Positions 1-52,117 of a stretch of DNA of 64,000 bases are shown here, piece by piece (positions within the stretch are counted from its first letter, which is position 1; each line of letters opens with the position of its first letter). Source of the DNA: Carnobacterium jeotgali MS3 (GTDB lineage Bacteria; Bacillota; Bacilli; Lactobacillales; Carnobacteriaceae); NCBI RefSeq assembly GCF_000745125.1, contig NZ_JQNF01000010.1, positions 186,001 to 250,000 on the forward strand, written 5' to 3'. Under the pieces are notes generated by a model, which was not told the DNA's origin, searched no databases, and saw only the letters and a program-made list of their open reading frames with translations. The translations under genes were made by a program, and so were the position numbers.

Positions 1-248
1 TTATAAAAGCCACTTCCTAAAATACGAGAACCTTCGGGAATATATTTGGCATATTTCTTAACATTAAAATGGTTTTGCCAAAATTGTCCTTCAGCTTCCC
101 ATTTCCTAGTTCGATACAGTAAGGAATTTTTTTGAAAAAAGTGGTCAGGTAAACTCAACGTAAACATAGAAATAGCTAAATGAAAAAAAAGCCAAGCGAC
201 ACTATCAACAACGATGGTCCAGAAAACAGATAATTCTATTAGCTGCAT
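1..248 (-). CDS. crtO: Glycosyl-4,4'-diaponeurosporenoate acyltransferase, partial (N-terminal part)
   Basis: The window holds only the first 82 or so codons; the gene runs off the left edge. The start is the second of two close ATGs: GGAGGG lies 8 bases upstream, and the first ATG is out of frame and stops after four codons. The protein opens with a hydrophobic membrane segment (about residues 6-25). This is followed by LPDHFFQ and a segment around WEAEGQFWQNHF-N-VKK, the pattern of staphylococcal CrtO. CrtO esterifies the glycosylated C30 carotenoid acid with a fatty acid, the last staphyloxanthin step. It is the last visible gene of the crt operon, 15 bases after crtQ. Confidence 0.85.
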   Translation of the reverse strand, partial: MQLIELSVFWTIVVDSVAWLFFHLAISMFTLSLPDHFFQKNSLLYRTRKWEAEGQFWQNHFNVKKYAKYIPEGSRILGSGFY

Positions 249-263
249 TGCATTTTCCCTCCA

Positions 264-1406
264 CTATACTTCTATATTACGCCCTCGCCACTTCACCCGG
301 TGAAAAACTTTTGTTAAAATAAGTGACCAGACAAACAATCCAACAAAAAATAAAAATTGGAACGGATAGAAGACAAGCGCATAAAACTTAAAGTTCCCTA
401 CTCGTCTGGCCAACCAATAAAACTGCGTTAGGTACAAGATACACAAAAGGCTAGTTGCTACTAACAGGCTATAGTGGGTTGTACTCAACGCGCCAATTAA
501 TGCAATCATAGAGAAAAAGCTTCCGCTAATCCAGCTTGATATCATTAACGTGACTATTGGATGAGTAGATTGTGCCGCAGTCCCGAAGCTCTTTGTCCAT
601 CCTTCTACCAATGTTTTCATTCCTTCTGGATACATTTGGAAAGAAATGGTTTCTTTTCCGCTGTAACAACGAACTGGGAAGTCCTTCTTGGCGAATAACT
701 CTCCTAAAGCTAAATCATCCATGATTGCCCCTTGTATTTCTTTGTGACCGCCCACACTAAAATACTCTTCACTTGTACACAAAATACAGGGACCAAAAGA
801 TCCAGCTGTTTTAAGTTTATCACCTATAGGTGTAAAAGTATTCATTCCAGCCATTAAAATAATATTAAAAACGGCTGACATATTTTCGTATAAATGGGTT
901 ATTTTATGATAAGGCTGAAAAGATAGAATGCCATCTCCACCAACCGTTTGATACGTATTTAGTAAATGTTGTAAGCTAAATTGATTTTCAAAGCACGTAT
1001 CTGCATCTAAAAAGAGTAACCAATCTCCATTGGCCTTTTGGGCTCCACGCCAACAAGCAGCGGATTTCCCAATATCTTCCTCAGAACTCGCTCTCTGGAT
1101 TACTTTAGCGCCATAACCTTTAGCAATCGCAACCGTTTGATCTTTTGAATCATCATCGACTACTATTATTTCTATGTTATAGACGGATTGTTCTTTTAAT
1201 GACTTTAGCAATTTGGGCAAACGATTTTCTTCATTTCTAGCAGGAATAATAATGGATACCGTTTTTCCAAAACTTAGCTGTTGCTCTTTCTTGAGTGCTA
1301 AAGGAACTTTCCAAAGCATAAGGAAACCACTAACGAGAGCTAGGGCTGTCAAAACACAAAAAACGATTACGATACTTTCCACTTCTAAAATAACCAACGC
1401 CTCCAT
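264..1406 (-). CDS. crtQ: 4,4'-diaponeurosporenoate glycosyltransferase
   Basis: A family 2 glycosyltransferase of 380 residues, close to the roughly 375 of staphylococcal CrtQ. It has an N-terminal membrane segment (about 10-30), SIIIPARNEE at 51-60, VVDDDSKD at 82-89, the DAD metal-binding motif in LFLDADTCF near 131-139, EGWTKSFG near 270, and several C-terminal membrane segments. It transfers a sugar to the carotenoid carboxylate at the membrane. The ATG used overlaps the end of aldH by 22 bases. A GGAGG lies just inside the ORF, so the true start could be a few codons downstream at a non-ATG codon; no good ATG alternative exists. Confidence 0.88.
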   Translation of the reverse strand: MEALVILEVESIVIVFCVLTALALVSGFLMLWKVPLALKKEQQLSFGKTVSIIIPARNEENRLPKLLKSLKEQSVYNIEIIVVDDDSKDQTVAIAKGYGAKVIQRASSEEDIGKSAACWRGAQKANGDWLLFLDADTCFENQFSLQHLLNTYQTVGGDGILSFQPYHKITHLYENMSAVFNIILMAGMNTFTPIGDKLKTAGSFGPCILCTSEEYFSVGGHKEIQGAIMDDLALGELFAKKDFPVRCYSGKETISFQMYPEGMKTLVEGWTKSFGTAAQSTHPIVTLMISSWISGSFFSMIALIGALSTTHYSLLVATSLLCILYLTQFYWLARRVGNFKFYALVFYPFQFLFFVGLFVWSLILTKVFHRVKWRGRNIEV

Positions 1407-2797
1407 TTACGAAGCAAATTCAAATCATTTGTTTGATATGGTGGGTATTGTTTTTGGCTATTGAAAGGCAAAATATTTTCATAATCCATCTTCAAATAAC
1501 TAAAAGTAGCTAGACTAGCCATTCCATGATAGCGCCCAAAACCACTTGCTCCGACTCCACCAAAAGGACTATGTGAGCTGACAGCATGTAAAATTACTTG
1601 ATTTAAACTGAACGCTCCTGAACGCAATTCTCTTTTCAAAAATTGACTAGTTTCTTTATCTTTACTGAACACATATACAGCTAACGGATCAGGATAATCT
1701 TTCAATTGATGAACTAAGGTTGTTAAATCGGTATAAGGAATAATTGGCAAAATTGGACCGAATATTTCTTCTTGTAAAATCGAACTATCCATTGGAATAT
1801 CGGTTAATAGTGTTGGTTCAATAAATCGATTAGCAGTATCTACATGCCCACCATAATAGATTTTTCCTTGTTCCAAATAATTCTTTAATTTTTCAACTTG
1901 TTTATCATGAACAATCCGGCCGAAATTCGAATGGTGAATCGGTTGAGTTCCATAGAATGTTTTGATTTGATCAGTCGCTAGTTGGAGAAATTTAGTGTAA
2001 ACAGACTCATGGATATAAACCGTGTCAGGAGCGATACAAGTTTGTCCTGCATTTAAAAATTTACCCCAAATGATACGTTGAACAACTGTCGGAGTTAGAT
2101 TTGTTTCGTCAACGATACAAGGATTTTTTCCACCTAATTCCAGCACAATTGGAATCTGTCTTGCAGCTGCAGCTTTATGAACAATTGACCCCACCTTTTT
2201 ACTTCCAGTAAAAAAAATGAAATCCCATGGCAACTCTAATAACTCACTAGCCACTGAAGCATCTCCAGTAACAACCACTAAATTATCCGGTGAAAAATAC
2301 TGTTCAACTAATCGTGCAATTAAATTGGCTGTTGCAGGTGCATATTCTGAAGGTTTAATGAAGCAACTATTTCCAGCTGCCATTGCCCCAATTGCAGGAA
2401 GAAGTGCTAAATGTAAAGGATAATTCCAAGGACTAATAATCAGTACCGATCCATAAGGATGATGTTGGATACTTGTTTTGCTAATTGAACTCAATCTAAT
2501 GTGATGCTTCTTTTTAGTTCTTTGCCATTGATTGAGTTTACGTTTCAAAAAGTCGATTTCTTGAAGCAATACTGCAATTTCAGAAGCATAAGCTTCCTCA
2601 GGTGATTTGCCCAAATCTTCATAAAGCGCATTCAACAATTCCGTTTGATTCTCTTCTAACATTAACTGAAAAGTAAACAATTGTTGTTTGCGGTAGTTGA
2701 TATCTGAAAGACTTGTTTCAACCACTCTTCTTTTCTGCTGCTGTTGAATAATCGTCCACTTTAACTTTTGTTTGTAAATTCTTATTGATTCAGTCAT
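1385..2797 (-). CDS. aldH: Carotenoid aldehyde dehydrogenase (4,4'-diaponeurosporenal dehydrogenase)
   Basis: A class 3-like NAD(P)-dependent aldehyde dehydrogenase of 470 residues. Visible motifs: PWNYP near 123, the general-base Glu in LELGGKNP near 220, the nucleophile Cys in GQTCIAPD near 254, and the C-terminal SPFGGVGASG(F)GRYHG. Within a crt operon it should oxidise the terminal C30 aldehyde made by CrtP to the acid used by CrtQ (also named crtNc). The start is the ATG in an ATGACTGA overlap with the crtP stop; a longer frame would run 53 bases into crtP and is unlikely. Function in the pathway is inferred from context; enzyme family is certain. Confidence 0.87.
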   Translation of the reverse strand: MTESIRIYKQKLKWTIIQQQQKRRVVETSLSDINYRKQQLFTFQLMLEENQTELLNALYEDLGKSPEEAYASEIAVLLQEIDFLKRKLNQWQRTKKKHHIRLSSISKTSIQHHPYGSVLIISPWNYPLHLALLPAIGAMAAGNSCFIKPSEYAPATANLIARLVEQYFSPDNLVVVTGDASVASELLELPWDFIFFTGSKKVGSIVHKAAAARQIPIVLELGGKNPCIVDETNLTPTVVQRIIWGKFLNAGQTCIAPDTVYIHESVYTKFLQLATDQIKTFYGTQPIHHSNFGRIVHDKQVEKLKNYLEQGKIYYGGHVDTANRFIEPTLLTDIPMDSSILQEEIFGPILPIIPYTDLTTLVHQLKDYPDPLAVYVFSKDKETSQFLKRELRSGAFSLNQVILHAVSSHSPFGGVGASGFGRYHGMASLATFSYLKMDYENILPFNSQKQYPPYQTNDLNLLRKWRRWLF

Positions 2798-4292
2798 TTT
2801 CTTGGTCTCTTTGCACGATTTTATCTCTAACTTGTTGACCACTCATAGTAACCATAGGCATACCTCCACCTGGATTTACAGTGCCTCCAACAAAATAAAG
2901 ATTGTCATACTTTTCACTGTGTTTACTATGTTTAAATCCATGATTTTTTTTGCGGTTAGATACGGTGCCATAAATTGATCCTTTGTGCGATCCATAGGTT
3001 TTTTCAATGTCATCCGGTGTCCACATATCCTCCGTCACAATGTGTTGTCGCAAATCTGTTAAACCCATCTTCTCTAATTTGATCAAGACTCGTTCACGCA
3101 ATTGCAAGTAGTCTTCTTGAGTGAAGGGTTTGTCTTGAATATAAGGAATATGAGGCAATATTTTGATATTTTCATGTCCTGGTTTAGATTGAGTTGGGTC
3201 AGTTTTATTCACATTTACTAAATAAATAGTAGGATCTTCCGGTAGTTCGTGCTTATTGAATACTGTATCAAAATGGTGAGCTGGATCAGCTGAGAAAAAG
3301 AAATTATGGTGCGCAAGCTGAGGATATTCTTTACTTACACCTAAATGCAACACTAAGCCAGAGCTTGAAGGCTCAAATTTCTTTTCTAATTTATCAATAA
3401 AATCCGTATCTTCATTCAATAATTTTTTATAAACTGGAATAACTTCCATATTTGAAACATAATAATCAGCCTTTTTTAACGAACCATCTGCAAATTGGAC
3501 GCCTTGAATTTGATTTTGGTTATCTTTAAGTAATGAAGTAACGGCTTTACCGGTGTGAAATTCCACGCCCAATTCGCCAGCTAATTTAACCAGCCCGTCT
3601 GCAATTTTATGCATCCCACCTGGTACATACCAAACACCTTGAGCATGTTGCATATAAATCATCATATTTAAGACTGCTGGAGCATCATAGGGGGACGAAC
3701 CGACGTATTTTATAAAATAAGCCAGCATGTCTCTGACTTTTTGATTACTGATTCTTTTTTCAATAGCATCATACATGGATGAAAAATAATCAAAATCTTT
3801 CATCGCCCCTATTAACCCATGCACACGAAAAATTTCTCCTGTTTTGTCTAATCCCTTTTCAAAATAGCCTTTTTCAGTCGCATCGTATAATTTTTTAGCG
3901 TAAGACAAGAACTCTTTGTACTCATTCAGATCCTTTTCACTTAACTCTTTATTTTCACGAGACATTTTCTCTAAATCACCATACAAATCAATAACTGAAC
4001 CATCTGGAAAGAATGATCTCCATTGTTGATCTAATTGAATGATAGAAAGATAATCATCCATCTTACGTCCACTGTCTGTAAATAATTTTTCAAATACGTG
4101 AGGCATTGTTAGGATTGATGGACCTAGATCAAAACCAAAACCGTCTTGTTCTAAACGATTTAACTTGCCTCCAAGATGATCATTTTGTTCAAAAAGCGAT
4201 ACATTATACCCACTCTGGGCCAGTGAAATAGCTGCCGAAATTCCGCCTAATCCTCCGCCAATAACAATGACTGATTTTTTTTGAGATGACAT
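2790..4292 (-). CDS. crtP: 4,4'-diaponeurosporene oxygenase (CrtP/CrtNb)
   Basis: An FAD-dependent carotenoid oxygenase of 500 residues. The Rossmann motif VIVIGGGLGGISAA lies near residues 8-21, with LGGKLNRLEQ-GF-FDLGPSI after it and the C-terminal VGGTVNPGGGMPMV flavin motif of the CrtI/CrtN superfamily. It is a diverged paralogue of crtN in the same operon. In the staphyloxanthin pathway this enzyme oxidises a terminal methyl group of diaponeurosporene to the aldehyde. The start is set by GAGGAG seven to eight bases before ATG; an upstream in-frame ATG lacks a ribosome binding site. Confidence 0.87.
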   Translation of the reverse strand: MSSQKKSVIVIGGGLGGISAAISLAQSGYNVSLFEQNDHLGGKLNRLEQDGFGFDLGPSILTMPHVFEKLFTDSGRKMDDYLSIIQLDQQWRSFFPDGSVIDLYGDLEKMSRENKELSEKDLNEYKEFLSYAKKLYDATEKGYFEKGLDKTGEIFRVHGLIGAMKDFDYFSSMYDAIEKRISNQKVRDMLAYFIKYVGSSPYDAPAVLNMMIYMQHAQGVWYVPGGMHKIADGLVKLAGELGVEFHTGKAVTSLLKDNQNQIQGVQFADGSLKKADYYVSNMEVIPVYKKLLNEDTDFIDKLEKKFEPSSSGLVLHLGVSKEYPQLAHHNFFFSADPAHHFDTVFNKHELPEDPTIYLVNVNKTDPTQSKPGHENIKILPHIPYIQDKPFTQEDYLQLRERVLIKLEKMGLTDLRQHIVTEDMWTPDDIEKTYGSHKGSIYGTVSNRKKNHGFKHSKHSEKYDNLYFVGGTVNPGGGMPMVTMSGQQVRDKIVQRDQEND

Positions 4293-4373
4293 ATTCAAAC
4301 ACTCCTCATGTACTTTATTGTATAAGAAAAGCCCCAGACTCAAACATCGTGCTCATTCGTCAAGGACAATTTC

Positions 4374-5234
4374 TTATTTTATTGCTTGGTAAATACGCTG
4401 CATCTCCATTTTAGAAACATAATTACGTTTTGTAAAACAATCGTACTTATTTTTTCGCACCGCATTTAGCAGACCTCTATAAATATTAGCTGATAATTCA
4501 ACCGGAAAACGACTATCTTCATCAAAGTAGCGATAATCCGATTGAATATTATCATAAAGTTCTTCAGCGCGTTGAGCCAATCTTTCCCAAATACGAATAA
4601 ATTTATCATTCACTTTTTTTTCCTTCAACTCTTGAATAGAATAGTTTTCCTTTTCTAATTCTGAAATAGGAATATACACACGTCCAATATTTTGAAAATC
4701 TTCCCCTATATCTCTCAATATATTAGTCAATTGCATGGCTAACCCTAGATTTACAGCTGTTTGCGTAAGATCTTTATCCGTTTCAGAAGCTAGTACAGGC
4801 AACAACATAAGCCCCACTGAGCCAGCGACATAAAAACAATACTTTTCTAAGTCTGACATCGTTTCAGGCATACTAAATTGAATATCCATTTTTTGACCCG
4901 TTAATTGATAATAAAACGGTTGAATATCCATATCATATCGTTCAAACACATCAGTTAACGCTCTCCAAGCTGGATGATCAATTGGCTGTCCCTTTTCAAA
5001 TAGAGCCAATTCTTTTTCAAGCGTCTCCACTGCTGCTAACTGTTCTTGTGCTGTTTCTGCTAAATCTACCTCATCATCGGCTCGCCTACAAAAGGCGTAA
5101 ATCGCAAATATGGCTTGTGCCTTAGCTTTAGGCAAACGTGAGAAAGCATAATAAAAACTCTTGGAGTGCTGTTTAATAATATTTTCACAGTACTGGTAAT
5201 CTTGTTTTATGGTTTCTTGTTTGTTTAATTCCAT
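4374..5234 (-). CDS. crtM: Dehydrosqualene (4,4'-diapophytoene) synthase
   Basis: A squalene/phytoene synthase family enzyme of 286 residues, the usual length. Both aspartate-rich substrate and Mg2+ motifs are intact: RRADDEVD (Asp53, 54, 57) and NILRDIGED (Asp175, 179), followed by GRVYIP. It condenses two farnesyl diphosphates head to head to dehydrosqualene, the C30 precursor. GGAGG stands 8 bases before the ATG. It is the second crt gene, 44 bases after crtN. C30 rather than C40 specificity is inferred from the crtN/crtP/crtQ/crtO context. Confidence 0.93.
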   Translation of the reverse strand: MELNKQETIKQDYQYCENIIKQHSKSFYYAFSRLPKAKAQAIFAIYAFCRRADDEVDLAETAQEQLAAVETLEKELALFEKGQPIDHPAWRALTDVFERYDMDIQPFYYQLTGQKMDIQFSMPETMSDLEKYCFYVAGSVGLMLLPVLASETDKDLTQTAVNLGLAMQLTNILRDIGEDFQNIGRVYIPISELEKENYSIQELKEKKVNDKFIRIWERLAQRAEELYDNIQSDYRYFDEDSRFPVELSANIYRGLLNAVRKNKYDCFTKRNYVSKMEMQRIYQAIK

Positions 5235-5278: not shown

Positions 5279-6790
5279 TTAGTATTTAACGCCACGGTCA
5301 TCTAGCAACAATTCTCCTACAGCTATCTTAGCAGACAACAAGACAATTGGGACACCTGCACCTGGATGGGTACTGCTTCCGGCAAAATAAAGATTTTCAC
5401 AATTTTTTGCTTTTGCTTGTGGTCTAAAATGATTGCTTTGTAACAAATTAGGTCTCAATCCAAAACATGCTCCATTATAGGCATTGAATTTTTCTTCAAA
5501 ATCTAATGGTGTCATATACGTTTCCGATACAATCTCATTTTCAACATTTTCAAAACCTTTTAGGGTTTTAAGCGAGTCCAATACTTGTGAACGGTAATAC
5601 TGAATCGTTTCTTCATTCCATTCGTAATCTGCTGTCGAAAGATCTGAAACGGGAACTAACAGATACAATCCATCTTTGCCTTCTGGTGCCATAGATTGAT
5701 CCATTTTTGAAGCCATATATAAATAGTAAGAGGGTTTATCTAATAATTTTCCATCAAAAATATCCTCAAGATTTTTATCTAGATCTTCTGTAAATACAAA
5801 GTTATGCAATTGATCAACCTGATCATATTTACGATCCATCCCTAGGTACAAGATAAAACAAGAACAAGAATACTTCATACTATCAATTTTTTTGTCCGTA
5901 TATTTGCCTTTTGCAGCTTTGTCTTGCACTAAATTCTTGATAGCATAAGGAAAATCAGCGTTACATAAAACAAAATCCGTTAGTACTTCTTTGTCTTTCA
6001 GTTTGATCCCATAAGCTTTTTTATCTTGAATCAAAATACTTTCTACTGGACTATTATAGTTTACTTTTCCACCTAATTCTAAAAATAAACGTTCCATTGA
6101 CTTAGCCATTGTATACATGCCGCCTTTAATGAACCAAACACCGTAAAGGAATTCAATCATTGGAATGATCGAATAAAGAGAAGGTCCATTATTAGGTGAA
6201 ACACCTATATAAAGGGTTTGAAAGCTTAACATTTGCTGCATTCGTTTGTCTTTTACGAATTTACCGATAGAATGACTAGCCGTATCAAATGTTTTCAACT
6301 TCAGCGCTTGCTTAATCATAAAGGGGTTATAAAAATCTAACGCACTTCTGAAAGGTCGTTGTAAAAAGTGATTTTTCGCCACGATAAAACGCCCATAAAT
6401 ATCTTGCAAATAACTTAAAAATCCTTCTGCATCTTCATCGCTAAGATTTTCTAGTGAAGCTATCAATTTAACAAGATCTGAAGATACATCATATCGATCT
6501 TTTTCCTCTGGCCCAAAGAACGCTGAATACATAGGATCGAGTCTGGTCATAGGAATATAATCATCTGGATTTCTTCCTGCCAATTCGAAAACTTCTTTAT
6601 AAATCTCAGGCATCATTACTAAGCTTGGGCCTAAATCAAATGTATATCCGTCTTTTTCAATCCGATTCATTTTTCCGCCTGGAATGGCTTCTTTTTCAAA
6701 TATCTCTACTTCATATCCTTCATGTTGCAACCGGATAGCACTGGCTAAACCGGCTACACCAGCCCCAATAACCGCTATTTTTTTACTCAA
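5279..6790 (-). CDS. crtN: Dehydrosqualene desaturase (4,4'-diapophytoene desaturase)
   Basis: An FAD-dependent desaturase of 503 residues. IAVIGAGVAGLASA at the N terminus is the dinucleotide-binding fold; GGKMNRIEKDGYTFDLGPS follows, and the C-terminal FAGSSTHPGAGVPIVLLS motif is typical of CrtI/CrtN. It introduces the double bonds that turn dehydrosqualene into yellow diaponeurosporene. The start codon is TTG, supported by AGGGGG 8-9 bases upstream; no nearby ATG fits. It is the first biosynthetic gene of the cluster, 56 bases after the MarR gene with no clear promoter between, so co-transcription is likely. Confidence 0.92.
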   Translation of the reverse strand: MSKKIAVIGAGVAGLASAIRLQHEGYEVEIFEKEAIPGGKMNRIEKDGYTFDLGPSLVMMPEIYKEVFELAGRNPDDYIPMTRLDPMYSAFFGPEEKDRYDVSSDLVKLIASLENLSDEDAEGFLSYLQDIYGRFIVAKNHFLQRPFRSALDFYNPFMIKQALKLKTFDTASHSIGKFVKDKRMQQMLSFQTLYIGVSPNNGPSLYSIIPMIEFLYGVWFIKGGMYTMAKSMERLFLELGGKVNYNSPVESILIQDKKAYGIKLKDKEVLTDFVLCNADFPYAIKNLVQDKAAKGKYTDKKIDSMKYSCSCFILYLGMDRKYDQVDQLHNFVFTEDLDKNLEDIFDGKLLDKPSYYLYMASKMDQSMAPEGKDGLYLLVPVSDLSTADYEWNEETIQYYRSQVLDSLKTLKGFENVENEIVSETYMTPLDFEEKFNAYNGACFGLRPNLLQSNHFRPQAKAKNCENLYFAGSSTHPGAGVPIVLLSAKIAVGELLLDDRGVKY

Positions 6791-6846: not shown

Positions 6847-7302
6847 TTAATTATTTTTCTCTTCTAACCATTCAAATTCATGGTTTAAAGACTTCAAACC
6901 TTTTACAAAAGCATCATTGCTTATATCTTCCATGTTACACTGAATAATTTCATTCAAAATAGCTTTTGATATAGCTTTTTTAGATTGCTGACTTTTCTCA
7001 GTTAACGTCACTACTACTGCTCGCTTGTCCGTATCTGATATTACTTTTTCAATCCATCCTTGAGTTTTCAACCGATTTAAGATTGGATTCATTGTTCCTA
7101 TACTCATACCTATACGATCGCTTATGTTTTTTATAAAGACATGATCTTCATCCCATAGCGCTAACAAAACAAGATACTGAGGAAAAGTTAAACCGAATGG
7201 CTTCAAGGCTCTTCCATACATTCTTGAAAATCCGTTGGAAGCTTTGTATACTTCAAAGCACAGTTGGTCTTCTAAAGATCGAACGAATATTGATTCATCC
7301 AT
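6847..7302 (-). CDS. MarR family regulator, OhrR-like with conserved N-terminal cysteine
   Basis: A winged-helix MarR protein of 151 residues. The N terminus reads LEDQLCFEVY; in OhrR-type sensors the cysteine of this block reacts with organic hydroperoxides and releases DNA. The DNA-binding segment includes SIGTMNPILNRLKTQGWIEK and the wing DTDKRAVVVTLTE. The ATG chosen has AAGGGG 8 bases upstream; an in-frame ATG six codons earlier overlaps that site. Its place between an HrtAB-like exporter and crtN suggests it controls the whole operon. The protein is only moderately like the window's true OhrR (near 51.6-52.1 kb), so the inducing signal could differ. Confidence 0.85.
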   Translation of the reverse strand: MDESIFVRSLEDQLCFEVYKASNGFSRMYGRALKPFGLTFPQYLVLLALWDEDHVFIKNISDRIGMSIGTMNPILNRLKTQGWIEKVISDTDKRAVVVTLTEKSQQSKKAISKAILNEIIQCNMEDISNDAFVKGLKSLNHEFEWLEEKNN

Positions 7303-7352
7303 TATTTTTTCCCCTTCCATCTAGTCCATTCATTTCAATTGTAATACTCACG

Positions 7353-8030
7353 TTAATTAGTTTCTCTCAACGTTAAAACGCCGTCTTTCATCACGTAAAC
7401 TTTGTCACAATGGCTAATCAAACGCTCATCATGAGTAACCATTATGGTTGCTTTCTTTTTAATTTTCGTTTCACGTGCTAATATCTCAACTACTTCAAAG
7501 GCTTTTTCAGAATCTAAACTAGCAGTCGGTTCATCTGCTAAAATAACAGAAGGCTCATGATACAAAGCACGCGCAATCGCAACACGTTGACGTTCTCCGC
7601 CAGACAAATCACTTGGGTATTTATCTCTCAAATCATAAATTCCTAATTCTTCTAACAGTTCTTTTTGTTTTTCTTTCTTCACTTTTGATTTTTCAACTTT
7701 ATTGACTAAGTTTAGTTGATCTTTCACAGTCAAAAATGGAACTAAGTTTGACGCTTGCAAAATAAAACCGATTTCTTTGAATCTTAAAGCTGCACGTTCT
7801 TTTTCACTCACATCACTAAATGGTTTTTCGTTAATTTCTACTGTTCCATTTGAAGGCTTTTGTAATCCTCCAATAATTGTCAATAAGGTACTTTTACCAG
7901 ATCCACTGGGACCTATAATAGCAACGAACTCGCCTTCTTCTACAGAAAAAGTGGTGTTTTTTAATGCTTCTATTCGTTTGTGTCCTTCACCAAAAGAACG
8001 GCTTACGTTATCCAATTCTATTAATTTCAT
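7353..8030 (-). CDS. ABC transporter ATP-binding protein (HrtA/LolD-MacB type)
   Basis: An ATPase of 225 residues with Walker A GPSGSGKST, Q-loop region ILQASNLVPFL, signature LSGGERQR, Walker B VILADEPTASLD and switch His in VTHDE. The type pairs with FtsX/MacB-fold permeases. It lies 15 bases after the permease gene and 32 bases before the marR gene, so the three are probably one transcript. HrtA of the haem-exporting HrtBA system belongs to this family; other relatives export peptides or lipids, so the substrate is not certain. Confidence 0.85.
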   Translation of the reverse strand: MKLIELDNVSRSFGEGHKRIEALKNTTFSVEEGEFVAIIGPSGSGKSTLLTIIGGLQKPSNGTVEINEKPFSDVSEKERAALRFKEIGFILQASNLVPFLTVKDQLNLVNKVEKSKVKKEKQKELLEELGIYDLRDKYPSDLSGGERQRVAIARALYHEPSVILADEPTASLDSEKAFEVVEILARETKIKKKATIMVTHDERLISHCDKVYVMKDGVLTLRETN

Positions 8031-8045
8031 TTTTGTTTTCCTCCT

Positions 8046-9137
8046 TTATCCAATTGCTGTTAATGGGTCGATTTTAACGACTGTCCGTACTGAGAATAAT
8101 GCTCCTAAAACAGCTATAACAATAAGCAATGCTGTTATTCCTGCAATAAATAGCCAATTTGTGCTATATGGAACTGCTGCTGGCAGAACAAATGACGTGA
8201 TAACCGTTAAAGTCAAGCCTATTCCCACACCAATAGTAGATAATAAGAATGTTTGTGCAACTACAGATTTAGCGATATAGCCTGAAGAGATTCCTTGTGC
8301 TTTCATTACTCCAAACATACTTGTTTTTTGTAAAGTCAATACATAGATAAATATTCCAATAACGACTGCGGCGATTACGATTAAGAAACCAATCATTAAA
8401 CCGAATGTTAAGACTTGAGCGCTGTATCCAGGTATTTTAAAGATGTAATCCCCAATAGAATACGCAACTAAATCGTCAGCATCTGCAACAACTTTTTTAA
8501 AAGAATCTGAAGAGTCACGAACAACTACTGCACTGATTCGACCATTTTCTGAATCATCACTTGCTTCAAAGCGTACTTCTTGGTATGAGTCAATCGTAGT
8601 GTACAATACCGGTGCCACATTAAACTTAGCATTTTCAGTAAATCCAACTACTTTTACTTCTTTATCGCTTCCAGCAAGTTGAACCTCATCTCCCAATTCA
8701 ATGCCATCTTCTTTATTTAAACTGATGTCAGCAACCACTTCATCATCAGTTTCAAATGCTCGTCCATCTATGACTTCGGGCATAATAAATTCATCTGGAT
8801 CAATACCAAAAAATGTTGCATTTATTTTTGAAGATTCGCCTGTCTCGCCAACTTTTCTAATAACACTAGGCGCTAAACCAAGTAACGCAGTTTCATCTGC
8901 TTTTACTTCTTTTGCTTGTTCAAATGTCAACATAGACATATTGATATTGGTATTTGATTCGTCCGTCAAAACAATCGCATCTGCTTCCCATTTATCCACA
9001 CTTGTTCGATTATCTTGCGCTAAACCATATGCTAACCCTGTTAAAAAATAAACCAAATAGGATACTAATACCATAACCCCAATAATCAATGCAAATCTGG
9101 TTTTTGAATACTTAATTTCTTTCCATGCTAAAAACAT
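8046..9137 (-). CDS. ABC transporter permease, FtsX/HrtB family
   Basis: A permease of 363 residues with the FtsX/MacB layout: membrane segment 1 at about 13-38, a large extracytoplasmic domain (about 40-235), then three C-terminal membrane segments, ending KIDPLTAIG. The N terminus (AWKEI-YSKTRF...GLAYGLAQDN) and the overall single-subunit layout match HrtB-type haem exporters. It is the first gene of the probable exporter-regulator-carotenoid operon, and a promoter with direct repeats lies upstream. The haem assignment is an inference from family resemblance. Confidence 0.8.
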   Translation of the reverse strand: MFLAWKEIKYSKTRFALIIGVMVLVSYLVYFLTGLAYGLAQDNRTSVDKWEADAIVLTDESNTNINMSMLTFEQAKEVKADETALLGLAPSVIRKVGETGESSKINATFFGIDPDEFIMPEVIDGRAFETDDEVVADISLNKEDGIELGDEVQLAGSDKEVKVVGFTENAKFNVAPVLYTTIDSYQEVRFEASDDSENGRISAVVVRDSSDSFKKVVADADDLVAYSIGDYIFKIPGYSAQVLTFGLMIGFLIVIAAVVIGIFIYVLTLQKTSMFGVMKAQGISSGYIAKSVVAQTFLLSTIGVGIGLTLTVITSFVLPAAVPYSTNWLFIAGITALLIVIAVLGALFSVRTVVKIDPLTAIG

Positions 9138-9230
9138 ATTATATCCCCCTCTTAACTACCTGCTTCTTTTTAGACCAATGAATTCTGTTGTATTTTGACT
9201 GTATGTAACCCATTGCATCATACACGATAT

Positions 9231-9260
9231 ATCATACCGTAAACGAAAAAAAATGTACAA
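9231..9260 (-). promoter_or_regulatory. Probable promoter of the exporter-marR-crt operon
   Basis: On the minus strand TTGTAC (-35) and TATGAT (-10) are separated by 18 bases. The -35 box overlaps one of two TACAATT half-sites spaced 22 bases apart, which resemble half of an OhrR operator. No other promoter of this quality is seen before crtN. Confidence 0.55.
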
Positions 9261-51186: not shown

Positions 51187-51618
51187 TTAGTTAAATTCAA
51201 TTGCTTTTATTTCAACATCAATATTGTTGCTAGTAGCTTTAGAATATGGACAGAAAGCATGAGCTTTTTCAGCTAATTCTTGTGTTGCTTCAAGCGTTTG
51301 TCCTTCAATAGCAACTGATAACACAACAGAAAGTTTGAATCCATTGTCTGTTGGATCTGACTTTAATGAAACTTCTGCTGTAACTTCAGATTTAGCTTCG
51401 ATTTTAGCTTGTTGAATCATAATTTCAAGTGCTGAATTGAAACAAGCACTGTATCCTAAAGCAAATAATTGTTCAGGGTTAGTTCCTTGACCAGGTCCCC
51501 CCATTTGTTTTGGTGTAGAAACTTTTACAGAAAAAGAACCATCTGGTAAACGACTTTCTCCATTACGTCCACCTGTATTGATTGCTGTTGTTTGATACAT
51601 TACTTTTGATTCAGTCAT
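51187..51618 (-). CDS. ohr: Organic hydroperoxide resistance protein
   Basis: An OsmC/Ohr-fold peroxidase of 143 residues. The peroxidatic Cys lies in GYSACFNSAL near 59 and the resolving Cys in AHAFCPYSKAT near 124. GGRNGESRLPDGSFSVKVSTPKQMGGPG is the Ohr-type N terminus. It reduces organic hydroperoxides with a lipoylated thiol. It starts in an ATGACTGA overlap with the ohrR stop, so the two are coupled. Confidence 0.95.
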   Translation of the reverse strand: MTESKVMYQTTAINTGGRNGESRLPDGSFSVKVSTPKQMGGPGQGTNPEQLFALGYSACFNSALEIMIQQAKIEAKSEVTAEVSLKSDPTDNGFKLSVVLSVAIEGQTLEATQELAEKAHAFCPYSKATSNNIDVEIKAIEFN

Positions 51619-52054
51619 TTAAAATTCCTCCTAATGTTTTTGATAAATCATCTATTTTTGTCAATAAATCAAAATAATCTTTTTCATTCATATTTAACAG
51701 GGCTAGGCAGGCAGAAACCTTTTCAAGTAACTCATCCCTTAAACTATCAGCTTTTTGGGTAGTCGCAATGATTACTTTTCTTTCGTCTTCCGGATGACGC
51801 TTTCGAGTAATGAATCCATTTGACTCCATTCGCTTTAACATCGGTGTTAAAGTTCCACTATCTAATCCAAGTCTTGTTCCTAATGATTGAACGCTTAGAT
51901 CAGATTCCTCCCAAAGCACAAGTAAAGCTACGTATTGCGTGTATGTAAGAGAATAAGGTTCTAAAACCGGACGATAAAGTTTTGTAAACTGTTTGGATAA
52001 AGTATAAGTAGAAAAACATAACTGTTCTTCTAGTAGAAAGTTGTTTCCATCCAT
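51611..52054 (-). CDS. ohrR: Organic hydroperoxide sensor/repressor
   Basis: A MarR protein of 147 residues. The reactive Cys lies in LLEEQLCFSTY near 13, and LDSGTLTPMLKRMESNGFITRKR-PEDERKVII is the OhrR DNA-binding and wing region. When the cysteine is oxidised it leaves its operator and the ohrR-ohr operon is induced. GGAGG stands 8 bases before the ATG; a ten-codon upstream extension overlaps this site. A palindromic operator covers the -10 box. Confidence 0.93.
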   Translation of the reverse strand: MDGNNFLLEEQLCFSTYTLSKQFTKLYRPVLEPYSLTYTQYVALLVLWEESDLSVQSLGTRLGLDSGTLTPMLKRMESNGFITRKRHPEDERKVIIATTQKADSLRDELLEKVSACLALLNMNEKDYFDLLTKIDDLSKTLGGILND

Positions 52055-52080
52055 TCTTGTTCCTCCTAAATAGGTTGTGC

Positions 52081-52093
52081 ACAATTAAATTGT
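52081..52093. promoter_or_regulatory. OhrR operator
   Basis: ACAATTAAATTGT, a perfect palindrome of the TACAATT-N-AATTGTA type known for OhrR, overlapping the -10 box of ohrR. Confidence 0.85.
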
Positions 52094-52117
52094 ACACTAT
52101 TAAAATTTTTAATACAA
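52089..52117 (-). promoter_or_regulatory. ohrR-ohr promoter
   Basis: TTGTAT and TACAAT separated by 17 bases on the minus strand. Confidence 0.75.

Follow-up and report, generated by a model that had tools for sequence, protein, structure and literature searches.

What do genes for a haem-type exporter and a peroxide-sensor-like regulator do directly in front of a set of carotenoid genes, and does one signal switch all of them? The question is raised by the window, that is, the whole 64,000-nucleotide stretch of the Carnobacterium jeotgali MS3 genome analysed here. All genes concerned lie on the minus strand. The gene hrtB (8046..9137), encoding an HrtB-like FtsX/MacB-type ABC permease (FtsX domain and match to 7W78), is followed by hrtA (7353..8030), encoding an HrtA-like ABC ATPase (ABC_tran), by marR (6847..7320), encoding a predicted OhrR-like MarR repressor with a conserved start at 7302, and by crtN (5279..6790; TTG start) of the 4,4'-diapophytoene desaturase family (TIGR02734). 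Further downstream are crtM (4374..5234; diapophytoene synthase family), a crtP-like gene for a second CrtN-like oxidase (2790..4298), aldH for the aldehyde dehydrogenase of the crt cluster (1385..2800; Aldedh), a crtQ-like gene for its family-2 glycosyltransferase (GT2; 264..1406) and the start of crtO (1..248; glycosyl-4,4'-diaponeurosporenoate acyltransferase, PF18927 above cut-off), the remainder of which is outside the window. CrtM, CrtN, the second oxidase, the aldehyde dehydrogenase, the GT2 and CrtO make up the full staphyloxanthin-type C30 set.

Organization and conservation of the locus

The preliminary description of this DNA had placed hrtB, hrtA, marR and crtN in one direction with gaps of 15, 32 and 56 bp, and this matches the ORF coordinates exactly; the 32 bp between hrtA and marR count from the first ATG of marR and become 50 bp when counted from the conserved MDES start at 7302. 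It had also seen no evident terminator, and indeed no terminator-like site occurs between the four genes on the minus strand. The LEDQLCF block that it reported in MarR is present as well, Cys15 (numbering from MDES) being the OhrR cysteine; Tyr19 and Tyr29 are kept, and the protein has Phe40 and Cys122. Its nearest solved relatives are 5HLG/5HLH/5HLI, 4HBL, MgrA and OhrR, of which 5HLG/5HLH/5HLI and 4HBL are AbfR of S. epidermidis.

In the family of the window (f1), crtN is carried by 7 of 18 genomes. A survey of crtNM neighbourhoods, as had been suggested for this locus, recovers the hrtBA-marR-crtN trio in all seven, with hrtB-hrtA-marR directly in front of crtN. The seven genomes represent three genera (Desemzia, Pisciglobus and the genus of the window) and their outer neighbours differ; since the block is intact in all of them in spite of the differing flanks, its grouping goes beyond chance. 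Spacing between marR and crtN is 56, 45, 53, 56, 40 and 13 bp in six of the genomes; the seventh, Desemzia incerta, has a 14-bp overlap of the two genes. Two congeners, G001 and G005, retain hrtBA-marR together with the operator described below and lack crtN. Their MarR proteins nest within the crt-bearing genus in the MarR tree, which makes loss of the crt genes, with retention of regulator and exporter, the most likely history. The arrangement is wider than this trio, with hrtBA-crtN recurring across Lactobacillales under other regulators.

Predicted operator and promoter of the hrtB-crt unit

Alignment of the hrtB upstream regions of the family revealed an 18-bp palindrome, TAYATCGTnnACGATrTA, on the hrtB promoter. 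In the window this putative MarR operator, TATATCGTGTATGATGCA (9214..9231), comes directly after a -10 box TATGAT (9231..9236), which is preceded by a -35 box TGTACA (9254..9259), all on the minus strand; relatives have TTTACA, TGTACA or TATACA in the same place, with a 17-bp spacer. The Desemzia form of the palindrome is TACATCGTACACGATTTA. Without mismatches the operator occurs only once in the 2.5-Mb genome of the window, at the hrtB promoter, and with two mismatches 15 times, a modest excess over the 9 matches of a reversed-pattern control. When the strict pattern was run against complete genomes from Jeotgalibaca, Fundicoccus, Planococcus and other taxa, it hit little besides the marR-linked loci described below, in nearly all cases a single locus per genome. 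Also, a weight matrix trained solely on the nine family hrtB-promoter sites gave 47 sites scoring at least 16 in 710 kb around the marR genes of relatives, compared with 2 in two shuffles, and nearly all of the 47 lie in promoters of marR-linked genes (ohr, marR, gpx, hrtB or crtN). A tandem repeat loosely resembling the operator, consisting of four copies of TATATCGTATCTGATTTT 201 bp apart, was seen at G003:C2:564487-565107.

The operator holds one of two positions. At ohr, crtN and most hrtB promoters its first four bases are overlapped by the -35 box TTTACA and the operator itself forms the 17-bp spacer, and in the genus of the window it stands just after the -10 box (congener G004 has no clear -35 or -10 there). 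Either placement would be expected to obstruct RNA polymerase, and this repeated operator-promoter geometry is the strongest evidence that MarR is a repressor with the crt genes among its targets. From the computed gene order and its conservation, the operator and the promoter geometry we infer MarR binding, repression and a polycistronic mRNA. A separate operator between marR and crtN was considered and rejected, as the gap sequences of the family contain neither a conserved promoter nor a second operator; a weak extra crtN promoter inside marR is possible.

Predicted targets of the MarR clade in other bacteria

The crt-linked MarR and its relatives form one clade (support 100/99; 50 rows, four row pairs being the same genome entered twice), apart from the window's own OhrR. 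Among the partners of the clade, ohr, gpx and (next to hrtBA) sodA belong to oxidative defence; the identities of their products as Ohr, GPx and SOD were checked. Planococcus and Planomicrobium carry ohr-marR-gpx with the operator on ohr, Psychrobacillus and Caryophanon have it ahead of the first gene of marR-gpx, and in Aquibacillus the operator stands in front of the glutathione peroxidase gene gpx. In Trichococcus, marR-hrtB-hrtA lies directly 3' of sodA, and its first gene again carries the operator. Desemzia, Pisciglobus and the genus of the window have hrtBA-marR-crt with the operator on hrtB, and Jeotgalibaca-like genomes and Fundicoccus have crtN-crtM-marR without hrtBA, the operator being 39-64 bp upstream of crtN. 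Because in the latter two the operator directly precedes crtN, MarR control of carotenoid genes is well supported by genome comparison. The hrtBA genes of Jeotgalibaca-like genomes were considered as a distant target and discarded, as they are located elsewhere and have no operator. At one locus, L228 (G265), crtN is seemingly broken in its 5' part with operator and marR retained, suggesting a decaying crt cluster.

Given that relatives of this MarR guard peroxide-detoxifying genes by means of the same operator, the pigment looks like a part of oxidant defence.

Residues of the putative sensor and the separate OhrR

Cys15, Tyr19, Tyr29 and Tyr43 are invariant in the 47 clade rows of the alignment, 46 of which have Phe at position 40, so that the second pocket tyrosine of OhrR is absent (in B. 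subtilis OhrR the pocket tyrosines are Tyr29 and Tyr40). Cys122 is found in all rows from f1 and Trichococcus, in 15 of 16 from Planococcus/Psychrobacillus and in 3 of 7 crt-only rows. Owing to Phe40 and to the missing Cys122 of 4 of the 7 crt-only relatives, the sensing chemistry may differ from that of OhrR. In 2-Cys OhrRs the sensing cysteine is joined to a C-terminal cysteine (PMC3469484, PMC11211675), and by analogy a Cys15-Cys122' bond is plausible in the crt-linked MarR.

For comparison, the window also holds, outside the operon and on the minus strand, a canonical OhrR gene (51611..52054) overlapped by the gene of the Ohr peroxiredoxin (51187..51618; TIGR03561 above cut-off), with a classical AATT-type OhrR operator, TACAATTTAATTGT, upstream of ohrR (52081..52094). 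The crt-linked MarR was therefore rejected as the OhrR of this genome, since the canonical pair (51187-52094) has its own operator and is separate in the tree. Its operator is of the ATCGT-N2-ACGAT type, not AATT-N-AATT, and ohr is not linked to it in the window as it is to clade members in Planococcus/Planomicrobium; by sequence it is OhrR-like, not an OhrR by strict membership. This window would thus contain two circuits of the peroxide type, each with its own DNA sign.

Proposed mechanism and alternative signals

The reading that we regard as probable is that a thiol-based OhrR-like MarR represses hrtBA and the carotenoid genes as one peroxide-responsive unit from a single promoter. MarR would bind the TACATCGTnnACGATGTA-type palindrome on the sole promoter, upstream of hrtB, and repress one long unit, hrtB-hrtA-marR-crtN-crtM-crtP-aldH-GT2-crtO. 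MarR would leave the DNA once Cys15 is oxidised, the probable oxidants being organic or lipid hydroperoxides, and Cys122 or a small thiol would then hold the residue in this state. Upon release HrtBA would be made, ridding the membrane of haem or of a comparable lipophilic pro-oxidant, as would the staphyloxanthin-type carotenoid, quenching radicals in the same membrane; the location of marR within its own operon would provide feedback. Peroxide is strongly suggested as the inducer. Why a second peroxide sensor would be needed beside the canonical OhrR/Ohr is unexplained and counts against this reading.

It is unlikely that the signal is instead haem, bound by MarR as in PefR or HsmR, with the pigment guarding against haem-driven radicals. 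In several Gram-positive bacteria HrtBA exports haem (PMC7858072, PMC11442138), PefR and HsmR are known haem-sensing MarR proteins (PMC11442138), and in other Lactobacillales the crt promoter bears an operator resembling that of the haem sensor FhtR. However, PefR ligates haem through Met1 and His114 (PMC11442138), and no invariant histidine able to do so is seen in alignment A1, which covers the family of the crt-linked MarR; this leaves haem as a direct MarR ligand without support. Moreover, relatives of the crt-linked MarR control ohr and gpx rather than haem genes, and the genome already has a second HrtBA with an adjoining TetR gene. The preliminary description had proposed that oxidative stress or haem switches on detoxification and pigment together: MarR control of the crt genes is supported by the clade, the shared operator and the ohr/gpx/sodA partners, but haem as a direct ligand is not. 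Peroxide is the likeliest signal, with haem a weaker candidate.

In place of peroxide, the signal might be sulfane sulfur or a different compound that reacts with thiols, such as hypochlorite or a quinone. The retained Cys15 and, often, Cys122 would suit this, and OhrR and MgrA react with sulfane sulfur too (PMC11211675). The ohr and gpx partners nevertheless point to peroxide substrates, and we judge such a signal unlikely.

CrtR, a MarR protein on a crt operon, responds to isoprenoid diphosphates (PMC5401885), and hrtBA and crtN are repeatedly paired; what MarR senses might accordingly be farnesyl diphosphate or a related precursor of carotenoids, much as CrtR senses GGPP, with HrtBA moving the carotenoid or its precursor. 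This is improbable, as the same clade and operator occur at ohr-marR-gpx and marR-gpx, with no isoprenoid link, and as hrtBA-marR survives the loss of crt and crtN-crtM-marR exists without hrtBA nearby. Just as improbable is mere co-direction of an independent hrtBA-marR unit and crt genes with a downstream promoter of their own: the crt-less congeners, marR-hrtBA of Trichococcus and the 56-bp gap of the window would agree with it, but marR-crtN is kept in 7/7 crt-bearing family genomes (the two genes overlapping by 14 bp in one of them and standing 13 bp apart in a second), the gap has no conserved promoter or operator, and the operator of the same clade is on crtN itself in Jeotgalibaca and Fundicoccus.

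Relation to known systems

The arrangement had been put forward as one with no established description, and a peroxide-type MarR on crtNM was likewise not found in the open-licence papers searched, where crtN appears together with hrtA only in two S. aureus studies and where no description was found of a switch for the C30 carotenoids of lactic acid bacteria. The OhrR-Ohr systems (1-Cys in B. subtilis, 2-Cys in X. campestris and P. aeruginosa) share with the crt-linked MarR the MarR fold, the LxxQLCF motif with its reactive cysteine, the pocket Tyr29 and clade relatives beside ohr; the crt-linked MarR differs in having ATCGT..ACGAT instead of AATT-N-AATT, Phe40 for Tyr, and hrtBA and crt as targets. 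The nearest functional parallel is OspR of P. aeruginosa (gpx-ospR; PMC4999210), a second OhrR paralogue acting on glutathione peroxidase and possibly on pigment genes, although its operator and pigment differ and it lacks an exporter-carotenoid operon. CrtR of C. glutamicum (PMC5401885) is also a MarR-type repressor of a carotenoid operon, but its reported effectors are isoprenoid diphosphates and its gene context is different. HrtBA systems under HrtR, FhtR or HssRS (PMC7858072, PMC11442138) similarly combine an HrtB-like permease and an ATPase with a dedicated regulator, whereas in the window an OhrR-like MarR takes that role and carotenoid genes follow in the same operon. The staphyloxanthin operon crtOPQMN of S. 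aureus encodes the same enzyme set, including the CrtO acyltransferase, but differs in gene order and regulator and is without hrtBA. It is under sigma B control.

A predicted operator, repressor and testable inducer class can be named here for C30 carotenoid genes in a lactic acid bacterium, and one repressor clade appears to move between genes for peroxide enzymes, for an exporter of the haem type and for pigment synthesis. This would place bacterial carotenoids in a peroxide-type regulon and make their long-assumed antioxidant role testable via gene control.

HrtBA and its pairing with crtN across Lactobacillales

The HrtB-like permease of the window aligns from end to end (1-363) with the solved haem exporter HrtB of C. 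diphtheriae (7W78; E 1.2e-23). An axial haem ligand of the latter is Glu219 (PMC11442138); this position is Gln in the window HrtB and in all close Lactobacillales HrtB tested, the nearby Tyr216 being retained. The substitution was rejected as a mark of crt-linked HrtB, as it is general in this HrtB group. Since Glu219 is replaced by Gln here and the second HrtB of the genome keeps Glu, haem as the transported substrate of the window HrtBA is something that we infer from homology. The second HrtBA (L045:124-2580 in G000, outside the window) is found some 6 kb past the crt cluster, beside a TetR gene. Its promoter contains GTGACAC-type repeats, and the haem-ligand position of its HrtB is Glu; it was considered as an FhtR system and rejected because no FhtR operator stands in front.

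In the order as a whole, crtN occurs in 75 of 395 genomes. Direct joining of hrtBA to crtN or crtM was found in 32 of the 67 loci examined, in five families: f1 (seven, all), f6 (16, all first-copy loci), f2 (five), f4 (three) and f7 (one). To account for the pairing, the HrtB tree needs seven gain or loss events, of which at least four are forced, on which grounds a single origin was rejected.

A TetR gene lies within the crt cluster in f2, f7 and part of f4, and away from the family of the window the crt operon is preceded by a TetR-type operator, TTATCAnnTGATAA, that is like FhtR operators. In approximately 20 of 37 loci (L202-L238), the palindrome TTATCANNTGATAA stands about 27-140 bp ahead of whichever crt or hrt gene comes first, compared with an overall density of 0.07 per kb. 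It fronts crtNM or hrtBA-crtNM and agrees with the consensus of TTATCAATCGATAA and TTATCGATTGATAA, the operators used by FhtR, a haem sensor of E. faecalis (PMC7858072). As TTATCAnnTGATAA replaces the MarR operator at other crt operons, the regulator, judged by these operators, has been swapped while the hrtBA-crtN pairing persisted. The identity of the TetR ligand is not given by TTATCANNTGATAA, because related Enterococcus-like TetRs use the motif before an MMPL-like transporter. In these Enterococcus-like genomes (L271-L283), a relative of the crt-linked TetR adjoins the transporter gene with a TTATCAATTGATAA motif between them. Naming an E. faecalis-type FhtR by the operators P1/P2 was also rejected, as in the 36 f7 genomes these mostly mark a TetR beside an MMPL-like transporter and are no proof of haem sensing.

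With hrtBA and crtN recurrently paired while their regulators differ, one may also ask which substance HrtBA takes out of pigmented membranes. A tentative possibility is that carotenoid synthesis and HrtBA form one conserved 'membrane-oxidant' module of Lactobacillales under at least two unrelated repressors (an OhrR-like MarR on ATCGT-N2-ACGAT and an FhtR-like TetR on TTATCANNTGATAA), with HrtBA perhaps acting on oxidised lipids or carotenoids rather than on haem alone.

In the crt clusters of f6 (L179-L194), hrtB, hrtA and crtN abut or overlap in all 16 loci, with no adjacent MarR or TetR gene and no obvious conserved palindrome in the hrtB-hrtA-crtN promoters. Here hrtBA and crtN are paired under neither the MarR clade nor its operator, which counts against the explanation preferred above. 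In these same loci crtM is located apart from crtN.
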